In this document: positions 3-11,588 of the stretch, piece after piece
Position numbering within the stretch: the first letter of the stretch is position 1
Layout of the letters: each line of letters starts with the position of its first letter
IMG/VR virus record: IMGVR_UViG_3300030380_000250
Coordinates: 1 to 31,093 of that record
Direction: 5' to 3' (one strand)
DNA: 31,093 bases
From: a virus
Notes under the pieces: model-generated
What the model was told of the DNA's origin: nothing
What the model saw: only the letters and a program-made list of their open reading frames with translations
Databases searched by the model: none
Made by a program: the position numbers and the translations under genes

Positions 3-380
3 AGTGGTAGTGACGCAGACAGTAAGACACTGACCTACGCAGATAGCCTGTACGTAGATGTGTATCAGAATGGTGTGCTGCTCAAGCCGGGTACTGACTA
101 TGCCGCTACAACAGGCACTAGCGTTGTGCTGGTTACAGGGGCATCCCTGAATGACATAGTTGAGATGGTAGTCTACGATGCGTTTAGTATTGCAAACTCG
201 TACACCAAGACTGAATCAGATACACGCTATCCATTCAAGGGTAACAACAGTATCATCCGCTTGAACGGTCAGACCATCAGCGCAGACATTACGATTGACA
301 GCGATGAGAATGGCGTAAGTGCAGGGCCAATCACACAGTCTGCTACCGTGACTGTTAACGGATATTGGAGCATCGTATGA
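3..380 (+). CDS. C-terminal part of a tail fibre-type protein (cut by window start)
   Basis: The reading frame is open from the left edge, so the true start lies outside the window. The visible 125 residues contain a segment reading DVYQNGVLLKPGTDY followed by a hydrophobic/charged stretch ending in VVYDAF, a module common in phage fibre and neck-fibre proteins. A short YTKTESDTRYPF stretch follows, and then a beta-rich C-terminus that ends in GYWSIV. It is the first of five consecutive fibre-like genes. Its last codons contain GGAG (367-370), the probable ribosome binding site of the next gene, whose ATG overlaps this stop as ATGA. The module assignment is from memory of the pattern; the exact role (receptor binding or structural shaft) cannot be told. 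Confidence 0.75.
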   Translation, partial: SGSDADSKTLTYADSLYVDVYQNGVLLKPGTDYAATTGTSVVLVTGASLNDIVEMVVYDAFSIANSYTKTESDTRYPFKGNNSIIRLNGQTISADITIDSDENGVSAGPITQSATVTVNGYWSIV

Positions 381-802
381 CCAGTATACTGAATGTAGAT
401 ACTATTGCAGCAAAGGACGGCACGTCTGCAGCTACGTTGACTAAGCAAGTTGCTGCCAAGCATCTTGCAAATTATGATGCAGTAAATCAAACAGTGGATT
501 CTAGCTTCAATAGCAGTTCAGTAACGGATTCGTCAACAGGTAAATTTCAGTTTAATTTTACAAACAGCTTTAACGCTTTGCACGACAAAGTTCCGCAGTT
601 TTCTTTGTGGGGTTCAGCTAATGATGGTGCAGCCAGATATAACGCTAGCACTAGAGGTATGAGTACCGAAGAAAATGGTGCTGTTGCTCATTCTACAAGT
701 CAGGTGTCTGGTGAGTTTAGAGATAGTTCTAGCGCAACTGGTGATTCTGCCGTTAATGATTTAAGTGGAAACTACGTTACAGTATTTGGAGACCTCGCAT
801 AA
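377..802 (+). CDS. Small fibre-type protein, tandem paralogue 1
   Basis: This encodes 141 residues. The ATG at 377 is preferred over the upstream TTG at 365 because it overlaps the previous stop (ATGA) and has GGAG six bases upstream. The N-terminus MTSILNVDTI and the C-terminus FGDLA match the next two genes. The centre carries the shared pattern D-S-x-F-N-x-x-S-x-T-D-x-x-T-G-x-[FY]-x-x-N-F (about residues 41-62), also present in paralogues 2 and 3. The remainder is Ser/Asn/Thr-rich and differs from its neighbours. This type of domain occurs at the ends of marine phage fibres. A role as an exchangeable fibre tip or decoration is inference. Confidence 0.7.
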   Translation: MTSILNVDTIAAKDGTSAATLTKQVAAKHLANYDAVNQTVDSSFNSSSVTDSSTGKFQFNFTNSFNALHDKVPQFSLWGSANDGAARYNASTRGMSTEENGAVAHSTSQVSGEFRDSSSATGDSAVNDLSGNYVTVFGDLA

Positions 803-1191
803 TGGCAAGCATACTTAAAGTAGATACAATTACGGGTGTAGCCACTGCTGGGTCTATTGCGGTCACAGGCGAAGGCAACTCAACCACTACTAATCTTCAA
901 CAGGGGTTGGCGAAGATGTATGGATTCAGCAATTCAGGAGCAACTCCTGACTCTAGTTTTAATGTTGCGTCTATGACAGACAACAGCACTGGAAATTATG
1001 ATTTTAATTTTACGAGTAGTATGTCAAATGCACTTTATCAGGTGTCAGCAGCAGCAACAGGGGCAAATAAAGTAAACGGAACCAGCACTAATAATACTGC
1101 TTCGGAGGTTAATATTCAGACTAGAGACTTGGGTAGTAACACTTTGGTTGATAATTACGCGTCCCCAGCAATTCACGGAGACCTAGCATAA
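802..1191 (+). CDS. Small fibre-type protein, tandem paralogue 2
   Basis: This encodes 129 residues. It begins MASILKVDTI and ends HGDLA, and it carries the shared DSSFNVASMTDNSTGNYDF centre. Start and stop both overlap the neighbours as TAATG. The ribosome binding site GGAGA lies in the GDLA codons at the end of paralogue 1. The protein is Asn/Thr/Ser-rich with no cysteine and no signal peptide, as expected of a beta-rich fibre protein. The fact that both ends are conserved and the middle diverges suggests duplication of a whole cassette followed by divergence. Function beyond fibre association is unknown. Confidence 0.7.
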   Translation: MASILKVDTITGVATAGSIAVTGEGNSTTTNLQQGLAKMYGFSNSGATPDSSFNVASMTDNSTGNYDFNFTSSMSNALYQVSAAATGANKVNGTSTNNTASEVNIQTRDLGSNTLVDNYASPAIHGDLA

Positions 1192-1562
1192 TGGCAAGCG
1201 AACTGAGAGTAAACACCCTGAAGGATGCCAGCGGTAACAACAGTATTGCCACCAGTTTTGTTGCAGGGGGAAGTGCGAAAGCGTGGGTAAACTTTAATGG
1301 AACAGGCACTGCTGCTATTAGAGATAGTTTAAATACTGCATCATTAACAGATAACGGTACAGGTACATTTGGTGTTAATTTTTCAAGTGCTTTTGTAAAT
1401 GATGATTACGCTGCTTCTGGGTCATTTAATTGGAGTAATAATGCAAACCAACTTTACGTTATAGCTGACTTAACTACTAATGGCGAGTGTAACACATATG
1501 AAGCAAATTCTGCTGTTGATAGGTCAGAAGTTTACGCAATTTATCACGGAGACCTAGCATGA
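1191..1562 (+). CDS. Small fibre-type protein, tandem paralogue 3
   Basis: This encodes 123 residues beginning MASELRVNTL and ending YHGDLA. Residues of the stretch AKAWVNFNGTGTAAIRDS, followed by LNTASLTDNGTGTFGVNF, match a domain I recognise from many marine phage fibres. This is the clearest member of the three and identifies the family. The start overlaps the paralogue 2 stop as TAATG with GGAGA at 1177-1181. The stop overlaps the next gene as ATGA. The other two paralogues have lost the AKAWVNF segment or diverged from it. Confidence 0.75.
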   Translation: MASELRVNTLKDASGNNSIATSFVAGGSAKAWVNFNGTGTAAIRDSLNTASLTDNGTGTFGVNFSSAFVNDDYAASGSFNWSNNANQLYVIADLTTNGECNTYEANSAVDRSEVYAIYHGDLA

Positions 1563-2665
1563 GTAAAGCAGCAGAACTAGCCGCACTGATAGGTTCGCAA
1601 ACAGCCCTGTCAAACAGGAATCTGATTATCAATGGTGCGATGCAGATTGACCAAAGAAATCAAACAACCACTGCAACTAGCTATTCAATAGATAGATGGA
1701 TTATTGTAAAAACTAATTTTGATGAATTGGTTATAGCTGTAACACAGGATACAGACAATCCCTCTGGTAATGGATTTTCAAATTCTCTTAAGGTTGCAGT
1801 TACAACGGCAGAAAGCGCACAAGCTGCTGATGAAAATATGTGTCTTATGCAAAGAATAGAAGGGCAAAATCTGCAGCAATTAGCTTACGGCACATCTAGC
1901 GCAAAAAGCCTAACGCTATCCTTTTGGGTAAAATCTCCTGTAGCTGGAAAACACTCCCTACTTTTTTATCAATCAACACCCAATCGTAGCAACTTGCAAA
2001 GTTATACAGTATCATCTGCAAATACATGGGAATATAAAACTATTACTGTTGAAGGGGATACATCAGGTAATATAGCAAACGACAATACTAATGAACTTGA
2101 AGTGTTTTGGAATTTGTCTTCTGGCACAGATTTTACTGGCACTCCTCATACTGGTTGGGGTACGCACTCAAACACAGATGATTTTGCACACAGTGACTCT
2201 GTTAATATTGCTGCACAAACAGGAAACTTTTTTCTCACAGGCGTACAGCTTGAGGTAGGCGAACAGGCTACACCATTTGAGCATCGTTCGTTTGGAGATG
2301 AGTATCAAAGGTGTTTACGTTATTATTATAAAACACCAGCACCTAATGGTGGTATGTCAGCAAACGAGACTTTCCCTTGTATTGGTAACATGGATGGTTC
2401 TACAACAGGTGCTTACATGCTTCAATTTCCAGTTACTATGAGAGCAGCACCATCAGCTTTTGAACAGAGTGGCACAGCAAGTGATTACTCAATACGAGTT
2501 ACATCAGACGCTAATGGCACAAGTGTACCAACAGCAGGTGGGTTTACTGCTGAAAACGCAATAATAAATTTAGTTTCAAGTGGTGCAGGATTTACAAGCG
2601 GAGATGCTTGTTTTATGAGGGCTGAAAGCACCGATGCGTTTTTAGCATTTAGTGCGGAACTATAG
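1559..2665 (+). CDS. Tail fibre / receptor-contact protein
   Basis: This encodes 368 residues. The N-terminal stretch SNRNLIINGAMQIDQRN and the later stretch FLTGVQLEVGEQATPFE, followed by an RSFGDEYQRCLRYYYK-type segment, are a well-known signature of phage fibre proteins with a carbohydrate-binding-like beta sandwich between them. The C-terminal ~110 residues form a separate beta-rich tip that reads TMRAAPSAFEQ. The ATG overlaps the previous stop (ATGA) and uses GGAGA in the GDLA codons of paralogue 3. It is the largest protein of the fibre cluster and the best candidate for the host-contact protein; that last point is inference. Confidence 0.8.
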   Translation: MSKAAELAALIGSQTALSNRNLIINGAMQIDQRNQTTTATSYSIDRWIIVKTNFDELVIAVTQDTDNPSGNGFSNSLKVAVTTAESAQAADENMCLMQRIEGQNLQQLAYGTSSAKSLTLSFWVKSPVAGKHSLLFYQSTPNRSNLQSYTVSSANTWEYKTITVEGDTSGNIANDNTNELEVFWNLSSGTDFTGTPHTGWGTHSNTDDFAHSDSVNIAAQTGNFFLTGVQLEVGEQATPFEHRSFGDEYQRCLRYYYKTPAPNGGMSANETFPCIGNMDGSTTGAYMLQFPVTMRAAPSAFEQSGTASDYSIRVTSDANGTSVPTAGGFTAENAIINLVSSGAGFTSGDACFMRAESTDAFLAFSAEL

Positions 2666-3029: not shown

Positions 3030-5054
3030 ATGATGCAGTTCAAGGCATTTAAGCCACAGGCACTTAATAAGATTGCAGGGGCTATGGGATATCAGGGTGA
3101 TATGTCACAGTTCCAGCAGTTTATTGAGGAAGACCCACAACGTAAAGCACAGATGGATAGGTACACTAATGCTGCACGTATGATGGCTAAAGGCGGTGTG
3201 GTTAAGATGCAGACAGGTGGTACAATAACACCCGGTGGTGGTAGTGGTGGTCTTCAAGTACCTACTACACCCGGTTTTTATTCACCTAATATACCGCCAC
3301 CATCTACTGCTAACCCACCAGCACTTCCTCCTGCTTCAACAATGCCTGTTCCTAATCCGCCAACAAATACAAGTAATGCTAGGGCTAATAATGTTCAAGC
3401 ATTTTCTGTAGAACAAATGTATAATCCTTCCTTACCACAAGGTGGTGTTACACAGGCTGCAATGACACCACTAACTGCTGGACAAGAGATAGCTTCAGGT
3501 ACAGCTTCAATAGGACCACGGCAGGGAATTAGTACTCAACTAGCTGGAACAGCTACAGCTACACCACAACAAGCAATACAAGCTAACTTGGTACAGGCTG
3601 ATACATCTGCACAAGCTGTAGACACTGCATTGCAAGCCACTCAAGCAGCACAGGCTAACCCTCAAGACCCTCGCGCACAGGTAACTGCTGCACAGCAAAC
3701 AGCCTCGTCTGTGGGCAACCTACAAGCTGCACAGGGAAATGCTATTCTGATGAGCAATTCTCAACAGAGGCAGATTCAACAGGGTGAACTTATTAGTGGT
3801 ACTGGTATTGATGCAACAAAAGCTGCACAGGCTACTGCTCAAACACAGGCTGCTGCTGCATCAGCACAGCCATCACAACAAGCATTAGTACAAGGGCAGC
3901 TTGCTAACTTAGCTAATCAGTTTACTGGTGCTAACCCACCTGCATGGGCTGCTGGTGCTATTCGTACAGCTAATGCACAGATGGCTGCTCGTGGTTTGGG
4001 TGCTTCATCATTGGCTGGTCAGGCTATTGTGCAAGCAGCTATGGAAGCATCGCTTCCTATTGCACAGGCAGATGCAGCTATAATTGCACAGTTTGAACAA
4101 CAGAACTTGTCAAATCGTCAACAGTCAGCAATGCTTGCTGCAGAGCAACGTGTTAAGTTTTTAGGTCAAGAGTTTGACCAATCATTTCAAACTAAAGTAC
4201 AAAACGCTGCTAAAATTTCTGATATAGCAAATCAAAACTTTACTGCTGAACAACAGATACAATTAGAAAACTCACGTGCTGCTAATACAATGAACCTACA
4301 AAACCTGTCTAATACACAGGCTCTTACAATGTCGAAAGCTGCAGCACTTGCTCAACTAGACACAGCTAATTTAAATAACCGTCAACAATCTGCTGTACAA
4401 AATGCACAGAACTTTTTGCAGGTTGATATGGCTAATCTATCTAACGAACAGCAAGCAGAGATGTTTAAGTCTCAATCTATTATTCAGTCATTATTTACTG
4501 ACCAATCTGCAGAAAATGCATCACGTCAATTTAATGCTACATCACAAAATCAAACAGACCAATTCTTTGCTAACCTTGCTAATCAAGTATCACAGTTTAA
4601 CGCTACTCAGATAAATGCACAGGAACAATTTAATGCAGGTCAGGTCAATACAATAGAGCGTTTTAATTCTGAACTAAACAACCAACGTGACCAGTTTAAT
4701 GCACAGAACCAGCTTGTAATTGCACAAAGTAATGCACAGTGGCGAAGAGAGATTGCTACTGCTGACACTGCTGCAGTTAATCGTGCTAACGAACTTAATG
4801 CAAGTGCCGTGCTTGATATGTCAAAACAAGCATATGACAATTTGTGGACATATTATGCAGACACTATGGAGTGGGCATGGACATCTGCAGAAAACGAATT
4901 ACAACGCATGAATGATTTAGCTGTGGCACAACTTAGCGCACAAACACAAAAAGATGTAGCTGCCGCACAGAAGAAATCATCTGCTGGTTCAGCCATTGGC
5001 AAGTTACTTGGTACACTTGGTAGTGCTTATATTAGTTCTGTATTTGGGAAATAA
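3030..5054 (+). CDS. Gln/Ala/Asn-rich structural protein, probable internal virion protein
   Basis: This encodes 674 residues. An AGGA just upstream favours the first of two ATGs. Residues 1-50 look folded (GAMGYQGDMSQFQQF), then comes a glycine-rich motif MAKGGVVKMQTGGT. Residues 70-120 are Pro/Thr-rich. Residues ~150-640 are an extremely Gln/Ala/Asn-rich, almost entirely helical region with repeated AQFN, QFNA and NLSNxQQ phrases. Aromatic residues appear only near the end (NLWTYYADTMEWAW). The last 25 residues are Gly/Ser-rich and hydrophobic (IGKLLGTLGSAYISSVFG). The composition fits a long coiled coil or a protein ejected with DNA. The gene heads a run of virion-type genes; the function is inferred. 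Confidence 0.65.
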   Translation: MMQFKAFKPQALNKIAGAMGYQGDMSQFQQFIEEDPQRKAQMDRYTNAARMMAKGGVVKMQTGGTITPGGGSGGLQVPTTPGFYSPNIPPPSTANPPALPPASTMPVPNPPTNTSNARANNVQAFSVEQMYNPSLPQGGVTQAAMTPLTAGQEIASGTASIGPRQGISTQLAGTATATPQQAIQANLVQADTSAQAVDTALQATQAAQANPQDPRAQVTAAQQTASSVGNLQAAQGNAILMSNSQQRQIQQGELISGTGIDATKAAQATAQTQAAAASAQPSQQALVQGQLANLANQFTGANPPAWAAGAIRTANAQMAARGLGASSLAGQAIVQAAMEASLPIAQADAAIIAQFEQQNLSNRQQSAMLAAEQRVKFLGQEFDQSFQTKVQNAAKISDIANQNFTAEQQIQLENSRAANTMNLQNLSNTQALTMSKAAALAQLDTANLNNRQQSAVQNAQNFLQVDMANLSNEQQAEMFKSQSIIQSLFTDQSAENASRQFNATSQNQTDQFFANLANQVSQFNATQINAQEQFNAGQVNTIERFNSELNNQRDQFNAQNQLVIAQSNAQWRREIATADTAAVNRANELNASAVLDMSKQAYDNLWTYYADTMEWAWTSAENELQRMNDLAVAQLSAQTQKDVAAAQKKSSAGSAIGKLLGTLGSAYISSVFGK

Positions 5055-5293: not shown

Positions 5294-5786
5294 TAAGCCA
5301 GACTTAAATGCCGCCATGTTTAATGCTCCTATTCCGGGGCAATCATTGACACATGAACTAGGCGCAAGACCGTGGCAAAGCCCATCACGTTTTAGTACAC
5401 TTGAAGAAGTAGTAGATTACTATATTAAAAAACTAAACGATGATTCTGTTGCACAGCAAGTTCTGACAATTATAGAGCAAAAAGATTTCTCTGTTTCTGA
5501 CATGGCAAATGTTATTCAGTTAAGTAGCGTAATGCAGGGTGTACATAACATTGACTTGGGTGTTCTTGTTATGCCTATTATTATGGAATTTATTATGATG
5601 ATGGCAGATGCTGAAGGTATTGAGTATGAAACAGGACTTGATGATGAAAGCCCAGAATTAAAAGATGCTGCTGTAAACAAAGCACTAGCTGACTTTGCAA
5701 AACAAAAAGATGCAGGGGAAGCAGAAGAAGAAGAGCAAGAGCCAGAAGAAGAACCCGTAAAAGGTCTGATGTCTAGGAGAGCATAA
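5280..5786 (+). CDS. Conserved phage virion-associated protein, unknown
   Basis: This encodes 168 residues. The N-terminus NAPIPGQSLTHELGARPWQ is a phrase that recurs in T7-like and T4-like marine phage proteins of unknown function from the structural region. The middle (about residues 36-120) is helical with a hydrophobic stretch VLVMPIIMEFIMMM. The C-terminus is a long Glu run (about residues 147-160) ending GLMSRRA. It overlaps the previous gene by 14 bases and shares TAATG with the next. A scaffolding or internal virion role is possible; I recognise the N-terminal phrase but not a function. Confidence 0.65.
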   Translation: MEQLNKPDLNAAMFNAPIPGQSLTHELGARPWQSPSRFSTLEEVVDYYIKKLNDDSVAQQVLTIIEQKDFSVSDMANVIQLSSVMQGVHNIDLGVLVMPIIMEFIMMMADAEGIEYETGLDDESPELKDAAVNKALADFAKQKDAGEAEEEEQEPEEEPVKGLMSRRA

Positions 5787-7093
5787 TGGGATTTTTTAAT
5801 GTAGACTTTGACGATGTTCTTGTAGGTACTATTGAAGGTATTGATGAGGGGCTTACAAAAGATATAGCTAGAACACGAGAGAATGAGCAGCGTCTTCGTG
5901 ATATTACTTATACAACACGTAAAACAGAACTGCAACGTTTTAATAAAGATGTGAAAGACAATGCTAAAAAAATTGATGAAGCTGCAGCAATTTTTGAAGG
6001 TGATGTGGATGCTATATATTCTTTAGTTAAAAGTGAAGGTAGTTTAGATGCAGCAATAGAAGCAGCAAACGTATTGAAAAAACAATCTCAAACTTTAGGT
6101 ATATCTCCTAAACAAACACTAGGTCTTGCTGAAGGTGGTACAGGAGTTACTGCTATGCAGCTTGCTAAGTATACAGCGACACCTGTAAACTTTACTGACA
6201 CAAAAATACAAGCAAGTGATACTGCTGTAGGTCTCATGAGAATTTTGCCCGGTGCGGGAGAGGGTTCAGTAGCACGTATTGAACAGGGCATAACTGCTGA
6301 CTTAAAAGCTGCTGGCTTAGAAATGAGTTCACCAGAAGAAGCATTAAAAGATGTTAAACCAGCTTTAACAAATAAACTTCGTCCTTATATGCTTGGACGT
6401 GTTGCAGACCCAAGTGCTGAAATAAAAAGACTTGCTATTGTTGCACAGAATTTAAAAGCAAATGGTAAAAACGATGAGGCTACAGAAGTTAATGCAGAAA
6501 TGCGTAGGGTTTTAGCGTCAAAAGCATCTGGTGAAATTGATGAGATTACACCTAGCTTTTCTCGTTTAACAAAAGCTGATTATACAAAGTCTATCTCAGA
6601 TGCTATGGGTTTAGGTGGTAACTTTGTAGGAGATGCTTACCAGCCAGATACAAATCAAACAGAAATACTTATGGAGACAGACAGAGTTTCTGATGTAGCA
6701 AATGAACTGCAACGTCAAGCAGTAGAAGCTGGCGTGGATTATGGTATTGCTTCTAGGAGAATCAGACAAGCCATTAGAGAAAATGTACTTATTACATTTG
6801 AAGCAAGCGAAGACGGTTTAGGTGGTCAGTTTGAATTAGTTGAAGGCACTCAGTTCTTTAATACAAGCGTTATTCGTGGTGCTGGTGGTGGTGATACTTT
6901 AGTAGGAGACCAATCTGCTACTAGCGTAGCTGGTGGTTCGGGTGCTTCTGCTGGAAGCATTAATTCAGATGCTCTAAACTCAGCTATTAATGAGTTAAGC
7001 GGTTTGCCAGACGGAGAGAAAGAAATAAGAAAACGTCAAATATTAAAAATACCGGGAGGTAGGCAAGCCCTAGAAGATGCGGGAATGCTATAA
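5786..7093 (+). CDS. Probable internal virion protein
   Basis: This encodes 435 residues, with the ATG overlapping the previous stop as TAATG. It is largely helical and charged in the first 120 residues (coiled-coil-like, TRENEQRLRDITYTTRKTEL) and mixed alpha/beta after that. There is a Gly/Ser-rich linker at about 365-395 and a short helical tail (GEKEIRKRQILKIPGGRQAL). There is no signal peptide and no membrane segment. It sits directly before, and is coupled to, the 1103-residue virion-type gene, the same arrangement as the paired internal core proteins of podoviruses. The assignment is by position and composition. Confidence 0.6.
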   Translation: MGFFNVDFDDVLVGTIEGIDEGLTKDIARTRENEQRLRDITYTTRKTELQRFNKDVKDNAKKIDEAAAIFEGDVDAIYSLVKSEGSLDAAIEAANVLKKQSQTLGISPKQTLGLAEGGTGVTAMQLAKYTATPVNFTDTKIQASDTAVGLMRILPGAGEGSVARIEQGITADLKAAGLEMSSPEEALKDVKPALTNKLRPYMLGRVADPSAEIKRLAIVAQNLKANGKNDEATEVNAEMRRVLASKASGEIDEITPSFSRLTKADYTKSISDAMGLGGNFVGDAYQPDTNQTEILMETDRVSDVANELQRQAVEAGVDYGIASRRIRQAIRENVLITFEASEDGLGGQFELVEGTQFFNTSVIRGAGGGDTLVGDQSATSVAGGSGASAGSINSDALNSAINELSGLPDGEKEIRKRQILKIPGGRQALEDAGML

Positions 7094-10499: not shown

Positions 10500-10863
10500 C
10501 ACCACCAAGTGTGCCTCGTTTACTTCTCCCTGATAGCTTAGAATAATTTTCAGAAGCAATATCAGAAAGATTATAACCCAAGTCGTGTGCCAGATTAGCG
10601 CAGTACCATAGAACATCTCCAATCTCCGCTGCTATTTCAATCTTCTTCACTTCAAATAACTCTTTGTCTGCACCATCCCTGATAAACTTCTTTACCTTGT
10701 TAGCAACCTCACCTGCTTCACCTGCAAGTCCAAGTGCTGGATACAGAATACGGTGTGTTGCTGGATAGATAGCAAACTCAATTGATTTACGTTGGTATTC
10801 GTCAAGCTGCATGTCTTTGTACCGTTGCTGTAACCATTCCTTCGCTTCTTGTTCCAAACTCAT
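10483..10863 (-). CDS. mazG: MazG-type nucleoside triphosphate pyrophosphohydrolase
   Basis: This encodes 126 residues, all-alpha NTP-PPase. The metal-binding pattern EAGE (49-52), then 27 residues, then EIGD (80-83), is the MazG EXXE-EXXD signature. The enzyme hydrolyses (d)NTPs to monophosphate and pyrophosphate. Phage copies are thought to sanitise nucleotide pools or adjust host physiology; the exact substrate is unknown. The start MSLEQEAKEW is chosen over an upstream ATG at 10920 because AAAGGAG lies seven bases before it and the longer form would overlap the upstream gene more. It lies downstream of the ribonucleotide reductase in the same operon, fitting nucleotide metabolism. Confidence 0.88.
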   Translation of the reverse strand: MSLEQEAKEWLQQRYKDMQLDEYQRKSIEFAIYPATHRILYPALGLAGEAGEVANKVKKFIRDGADKELFEVKKIEIAAEIGDVLWYCANLAHDLGYNLSDIASENYSKLSGRSKRGTLGGDGDNR

Positions 10864-11359
10864 CAAACAACTCCTTTGTTTTCTTCTGCGAAATTTTGAA
10901 CCATTCCAGCTTTCGCTCACTTGCTTCTATCTCAAACAAGCTGTGCAAATCTTTTTCTGCTTTAGCATTATCTTCTACACGTAATTTACATAACAGCTTG
11001 TACTCTCTAAATGGGTCAGCAGTTTGGTAACTTCCAAGTCTGTTCTCAGCAACCATTGCCTTACCTATTTTTACCCAACCCTTACGCAAGGGGTGTATAA
11101 TTGCATACACATCACCTGCTTTTTCTTGGTGATAAAGACGTGTGACAAGTTCGTTGATGTCATTAACAGATGTATTTTGAAACACAATCTTGTCCATTTT
11201 ACCACCCTGCTGTAAATAACTTTCTAATGTTCTGTGCTTACGCTTGTAAAAGATTAATCCAATAGGACTCATGTGGTGGTTCTTTCCGGGGTTACGCCAA
11301 GTTGTACCATCAAAAACCTTACCGTCTTCTCTAACATCCCAATTCTCAGGTTTTTTCAT
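10802..11359 (-). CDS. T5orf172 / GIY-YIG superfamily protein
   Basis: This encodes 185 residues. The C-terminal half carries GDVYAIIHPLRKGWVKIGKA, followed by an NRLGSYQT segment, then AEKDLHSLFE and EWFKIS. That is the T5orf172 variant of the GIY-YIG nuclease fold, with the usual Lys-Ile-Gly, Arg and Glu positions. The N-terminal ~70 residues (WDVREDGKVFDGTTW, then HMSPIGLIFYKRKH) look like a short DNA-binding or HNH-associated region as seen in phage mobile-type genes. The start at 11359 is preferred over 11383 because AAGGAG lies six bases upstream. It overlaps mazG by 62 bases. It could be a homing-type endonuclease or a host-directed nuclease; catalytic activity is unproven. Confidence 0.75.
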   Translation of the reverse strand: MKKPENWDVREDGKVFDGTTWRNPGKNHHMSPIGLIFYKRKHRTLESYLQQGGKMDKIVFQNTSVNDINELVTRLYHQEKAGDVYAIIHPLRKGWVKIGKAMVAENRLGSYQTADPFREYKLLCKLRVEDNAKAEKDLHSLFEIEASERKLEWFKISQKKTKELFDEFGTRSEGMVTATVQRHAA

Positions 11360-11588
11360 TTTCTTCTCCTTCTGTCTGTTCAAGGGGGAAATATTTTGTA
11401 AGTATTTCTAACTTATCATGATAAGCTGCGGCTTTGTCAAGTTCTAAGTCTATAGTTTCTATAATATCAGAGTGTTCTCCAATGCCTACGGTCTGATTCA
11501 TGTAGACTTCTATGTTAGCAAGATGTTTATTTATACCACCAACTAAATAAGAACGAGTTGCATTTATCATAACATTTTTTATACTCAT
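11346..11588 (-). CDS. Small conserved phage protein, unknown
   Basis: This encodes 80 residues. The phrases NATRSYLVGGINKHLANIEV and GIGEHSDIIETIDLELDKAA recur in small proteins of marine myo- and podoviruses, where they have no known role. The protein is helical and acidic at the C-terminus. Its start overlaps the stop of a hand-found membrane peptide as ATGA and its end overlaps the T5orf172 gene by 14 bases. Nothing in the sequence points to catalysis. Confidence 0.7.
   Translation of the reverse strand: MSIKNVMINATRSYLVGGINKHLANIEVYMNQTVGIGEHSDIIETIDLELDKAAAYHDKLEILTKYFPLEQTEGEENEKT

Follow-up and report, generated by a model that had tools for sequence, protein, structure and literature searches.

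Ordered tail-fibre tip genes of an HMO-2011-type podovirus: probable slot-specific tags carrying exchangeable heads

The window considered here is a whole viral record of 31,093 bases (a 31-kb contig), and the three tandem genes at its beginning are quite likely, in our judgement, to belong to an ordered array of small fibre-tip proteins, each built from a docking tag specific to its slot in the row and an exchangeable lectin-like head. We refer to these genes as slots B1, B2, and B3. The N-terminal tag probably docks the tip at a set place on the fibre base, for example on the MPYIG protein, as the sequences suggest, and the C-terminal head would probably contact the host surface; binding of receptors or carbohydrates and a location on the virion are probable properties of these tip proteins. 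When phages co-infect a cell, homologous or short-homology recombination probably swaps a head as one unit, with the K-x-W codons at its left edge and the GDLA codons at its right. Since the last codons of this unit would also be the ribosome-binding site of the next gene, a new head would leave the operon translated after the swap.

The window locus and the order of slots

By its sequence the window is an HMO-2011-type podovirus, an assignment based on a family A DNA polymerase with a weak DnaJ-type insertion (PF00476 match; DnaJ_CXXCXGXG at 20.9 bits, below the 32.7-bit Pfam cut-off) and on a fibre region matching that of Puniceispirillum phage HMO-2011 both by blastn and in synteny. The fibre-base protein at the window edge corresponds to HMO-2011 gp33, annotated there as 'putative tail fiber protein'. 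The three genes that follow are, judging from their sequences, real homologous tail-fibre genes: all match PHROG 11355, 'tail fiber protein' (E = 2e-10, 6e-12, and 9e-16 for B1, B2, and B3), and they match one another in phmmer comparisons within a five-sequence set (28, 24.5, and 15 bits). Their reading frames overlap, with TAATG, TAATG, and ATGA at the successive junctions. The coordinates, the N-terminus common to all three, and the GDLA end are as an earlier sequence-only reading of this DNA had given them. The core motif ascribed by that reading to all three proteins is exact in the first two (DSSFN...TD), but in the third it is RDSLNTASLTD. The supposed variable middle proved to be the C-terminal two-thirds of each protein, in which only a core close to the beginning and the terminal GDLA are conserved, and the N-termini, though alike across the three as claimed, are yet specific to each position in the row. 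The next slot bears a tag of its own and a larger head, and tags of the same MS[KR]A.[ED]LA type bear the small head in some relatives. Elsewhere in the window, a small ORF at 10802-11383 has several PHROG matches of unknown function and by eye resembles T5orf172/GIY-YIG type nucleases.

Coordinates of the fibre-tip slots and associated elements (window positions unless a locus is named)
Feature	Coordinates	Strand	Basis
MPYIG fibre-base protein, truncated at the window edge to its C-terminal part; found ahead of slot B1 in relatives	3..380	+	HMO-2011 gp33 match; PHROG 18345 tail fiber
Slot B1 fibre-tip gene, 141 aa	377..802; tag 377-457, head 458-799	+	ORF, PHROG, relatives
Slot B2 fibre-tip gene, 129 aa	802..1191; tag 802-912, head 913-1188	+	ORF, PHROG, relatives
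Slot B3 fibre-tip gene, 123 aa	1191..1562; tag 1191-1277, head 1278-1559	+	ORF, PHROG, relatives
Slot after B3: fibre protein with own tag (MSKAAELAALIGSQ) and larger head	1559..2665	+	PHROG 4492 tail fiber
GGAGACCTCGCA, encoding GDLA; putative Shine-Dalgarno for the next gene and right exchange boundary	788..799	+	codon bias, switch points
GGAGACCTAGCA, GDLA element at the end of slot B2	1177..1188	+	codon bias, switch points
GGAGACCTAGCA, GDLA element closing slot B3 and sharing bases with the next start (ATGA)	1548..1559	+	codon bias, switch points
Three-slot design with two companion genes, also in marine module A	L167 3998-5969 (Mel-JY33); L168 3998-5956 (Nsp-JY18)		

A scan of viral contigs with the third protein found at least 587 relatives, from which 80 loci were retained, and an independent second scan anchored on the downstream gene at 3030-5054 supplied 80 further loci; a scan with the downstream gene at 5786-7093 recovered nothing, and of two scans of genome contigs, neither of which gave an array, one yielded no relative and the other four isolated head-domain matches. 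Among the 39 anchored loci having at least 3 kb upstream, 22 carry the array and the rest carry other fibre genes; those array-less loci that were inspected closely have either MPYIG-type proteins and the same tag types with other heads, or single long fibres. In the relatives fetched, the order is fixed: slots A1-A2-A3 come first and B1-B2-B3, the slots occupied by the window genes, come last, with some 2-2.7 kb between them that holds further fibre genes, chaperone genes, and MPYIG genes. The same slots are found in HMO-2011 itself (GU557055, gp28-gp41 region), where some fourteen small tail genes stand in a row. Slot B2 is missing from two loci (L044 and L046), in which B1 adjoins B3, and an extra slot is inserted in some others. 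On the earlier question whether cassette number varies among relatives, the copy number is nearly fixed, usually at three per module. Genes for tail-fibre assembly chaperones sit between slots.

An MPYIG protein precedes each slot module, as seen in locus L001 (2664-3113, HMO-2011 gp41, and 5918-6379, HMO-2011 gp33) and at 3-380 of the window. Because the module-A protein resembles the T7 tail fibre N-terminal domain (HMO-2011 gp41, 23.7 bits against a cut-off of 25.2), the MPYIG proteins may be the fibre bases on which the tags dock. A conserved companion gene in the same locus (L001 4674-5147, FQGTHLFDRLCWAKENLEG...) comes after slot A3 in marine phages and after the three slot genes in cyanophages; it has no PHROG or Pfam match, and its role is possibly in tip assembly.

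Tags, heads, and exchange between slots

Identity comparison of 273 proteins with a recognisable core separates the two parts of these proteins. Over the first 22 residues identity is 0.45-0.86 within a slot and mostly ~0.3 between slots, reaching 0.50 for A2 against B2, which are corresponding slots. The variable C-terminal region stays at 0.18-0.20 both within and between slots, and the core (~0.45-0.5) and the last eight residues (~0.5-0.6) likewise show the same figures within slots as between them. As identity drops between slots for the first 22 residues only, the tag, a slot-specific stretch of ~27-37 N-terminal residues, identifies the slot, and the head carries no such mark. Closely related loci behave similarly: in 71 locus pairs whose MPYIG genes are at least 0.85 identical, the tags are 0.73-0.89 identical and the heads 0.55-0.57, equal to the 0.55 found for random heads taken from other slots, and in one such comparison (L053 with L042) MPYIG identity is 0.97, tag identity 0.91-0.93, and head identity 0.54-0.57. 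Across the family, G+C is lower in heads (0.41) than in tags (0.47), a difference that might stem from a distinct gene pool or from a codon constraint. We also considered selection for distinct heads within each genome; none of 583 within-locus pairs reaches 55% identity, and this count is uninformative because only ~0.7 such pairs would be expected by chance.

Two freshwater cyanophage isolates repeat the pattern. On either side of a three-gene row, Microcystis phage Mel-JY33 and Nostoc phage Nsp-JY18 agree closely (97% identity upstream, 96% downstream); the three tags match one to one, and the heads differ. The presence of the three-slot design in these phages means that the system is wider than the HMO-2011-type group. 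Their recorded hosts belong to different genera, which is no more than suggestive of a tie between the head difference and host range; our search of the open-access literature found no paper on the pair.

Since both marine modules and the freshwater cyanophages have three slots with distinct tags, one might suppose that the three slot proteins are chains of a single heterotrimeric tip, the row then representing one fibre and not three. The contents of slot B2 speak against this. In HMO-2011 it is occupied by gp31, a C1q-domain protein (PF00386 match) on a B2-like tag, and in relatives further unrelated heads occur on B2, A1/A2-like, and MALTKV tags; no PF00386 match was found by Pfam in the window's own B1-B3. 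With B2 at times replaced in this way or missing altogether, we reject an obligate heterotrimer, and with an extra slot inserted in some loci, we regard the heterotrimer in any form as unlikely.

Near-identical heads do occur on different tags: 7 of 18 head pairs at least 95% identical sit on different slots, 20 of 35 head clusters have members from several slots, and two genomes (L058 and L061) have two heads in common, each in a different slot. The interchangeability of cassettes proposed in the sequence-only reading is therefore upheld, with near-identical heads on different tags, slots, and genomes, and unrelated heads between near-identical flanks and tags; the alternative that it had allowed for, relatives free of mosaic variation, is contradicted by extensive mosaicism. 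DNA alignments change abruptly from unrelated tags to near-identical heads. Local DNA alignment of 20 cross-slot head pairs at least 75% identical placed the left switch near the K-x-W codon block in 16 pairs; in 18 pairs the right switch fell at the last codon, no more than 2 nt from where the gene ends. The recombination between cassette ends first imagined needs correcting for the left exchange point, which lies inside the gene. This evidence comes mostly from metagenome contigs; assembly chimeras are nevertheless an unlikely source of it, because the cross-slot pairs were drawn from different metagenomes, the switch points agree, and the two cyanophage isolates have the same tags with different heads.

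The within-slot head identity at background level would also be produced by rapid point mutation in place under host pressure, without any exchange. Near-identical heads on different slots and DNA that switches abruptly at defined points make this explanation very improbable. We give still less credence to rewriting of the heads by a diversity-generating retroelement. The classic target of such an element is the variable C-terminal part of a tail protein, in keeping with the position of the heads; however, no reverse transcriptase was found in ten records, comprising among others seven HMO-2011-type contigs of 50-59 kb and the window's own incomplete 31-kb record, and whole heads differ, length and fold included, rather than scattered positions. 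For the exchange of heads that we favor, the window encodes a Cas4-type exonuclease, a Holliday junction resolvase-related endonuclease, and an integrase, so ordinary phage recombination is available, and these functions are candidates for the enzymes of exchange.

The GDLA end and the predicted head fold

The right edge of the putative exchange unit has a distinctive codon usage. GDLA terminates 325 of 349 unique array members, and its glycine codon is GGA in 319 of the 325, GGG in 6, and never GGT or GGC, against 23% GGA and 66% GGT plus GGC for glycine elsewhere in the same genes. The remaining three codons are similarly skewed relative to the rest of the genes (GAC 86% against 32% for Asp, CTC 39% against 4% for Leu, and GCA 92% against 40% for Ala). 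The resulting GGAGA is spaced from the next start as a ribosome-binding site would be. In 331 members that start shares bases with the stop codon (TAATG or ATGA); GDLA is present in 312 of these 331 coupled genes and in 13 of 18 uncoupled ones (Fisher p = 0.005). From this codon pattern we read the element as a coding-embedded ribosome-binding site that would move with the head and form the right edge of the exchange unit. A requirement of the fold for GDLA was also considered and set aside, as seven head-domain proteins from array-less phages end differently.

One may go a step further and suppose a socket system, in which the tags would represent three to eight sockets per tail, each socket would accept any head out of a shared pool comprising several unrelated folds, and swaps would stay in frame and translated with the right exchange point serving as the ribosome-binding site. 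We put this extended model forward tentatively, as a possibility that we lean slightly against. Were it true, one virion would display six or more different lectin heads simultaneously.

In the AlphaFold model of the third protein, pLDDT mostly exceeds 90 from residue 31, where the exchanged unit starts, and residues 1-30 are weak; in the first protein pLDDT falls to ~52-57 at residues 81-100, within the variable region. The closest solved structural neighbours of the third protein are the C-terminal tips of the phiAB6 and Pam1 tailspikes, R-pyocin fibres, AP22 gp53, and H-type lectins (Z of 5-7.5; Helix pomatia agglutinin 5.4, R-pyocin fibre 6.0, AP22 gp53 5.8), and the first protein shares several of them at lower Z. 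Unrelated folds, which would have spoken against the cassette idea, are not what the models indicate: both proteins are predicted to be beta-sandwiches, and the solved structures nearest to them are the same fibre and spike tips. As all Z-scores are below 8, the likeness of the two modelled heads to a lectin-like beta-sandwich is suggestive only; the H_lectin profile has no Pfam match in B1-B3, and a sequence search against solved structures gave no match.

Among predicted viral structures, the same domain terminates cyanophage tail fibres. This bears on whether the heads are adhesins at all. Such small tips could instead decorate the surface, for example as protease shields or antigen-like covers, with variation that is neutral or serves escape from something else. 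Against decoration stand the use of the same heads as C-terminal ends of other phages' long tail fibres and the proximity of tail-fibre assembly chaperones and of C1q or other fibre heads, and we consider it distinctly improbable.

Known systems and what the array may mean

The nearest parallel known to us is the TSP1-TSP4 branched tailspike complex of Kuttervirus (Ackermannviridae), in which several receptor-binding proteins are encoded in one cluster (PMC8432352, PMC11414711). These tailspikes have conserved slot-specific N-termini and diverse C-terminal modules, with 91-100% identical modules on different TSPs and a conserved junction motif, GTTAVSL (PMC8432352). The array, known here from its genes alone, resembles them in its slot-specific N-termini and in the exchange of modules between slots. 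In contrast to the up to four spikes of the myovirus-type Kuttervirus, it comprises three to eight proteins of ~120-145 aa in a podovirus, and it differs further in having one head domain per protein, tags of ~27-37 residues, a ribosome-binding site embedded at the right boundary, and essentially no slot memory. Because the window fibre proteins have no Pfam match to the XD or T4 gp10-like hinge domains and those of B1-B3 are only 123-141 aa long, the array is not classed as a member of the Ackermannviridae type, although it works like that system.

Other systems share single features. In marine metaviromic islands, tail fibre, C1q, and lectin-like genes vary between otherwise similar phages, and in the part of that source considered here neither slots in a set order nor tags nor a defined unit of exchange are described (PMC3909814). 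The gp28-gp41 region of HMO-2011 (GU557055) is the same locus with the same slots, annotated merely as separate tail-fibre, tail-related, and C1q proteins, and the main text of a genomics paper on HMO-2011-type phages (PMC9038755) does not contain the term 'tail fiber'. Fibres of the cyanophages Syn5, S-CAM7, and S-TIM5 and the phiAB6 and Pam1 tailspikes have a similar predicted head fold at the C-terminal tip of a long fibre or spike, whereas in the array the head is a separate small protein. Module swapping among fibre slots is thus known from the Ackermannviridae tailspikes, and its small version with many slots, present in an abundant group of marine phages, seems not to have been described in the open-access literature.

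The phages that carry the array belong to a group of very common ocean bacteriophages, and swaps of heads would probably alter their grip on the host. With the slot giving the place of a tip and the head what that tip may bind, the host range of uncultured viruses becomes testable head by head. A ribosome-binding site inside the last codons of a module would be a simple means to keep swapped genes translated, and with the array, recombination among marine viruses could be measured in a clean natural setting.
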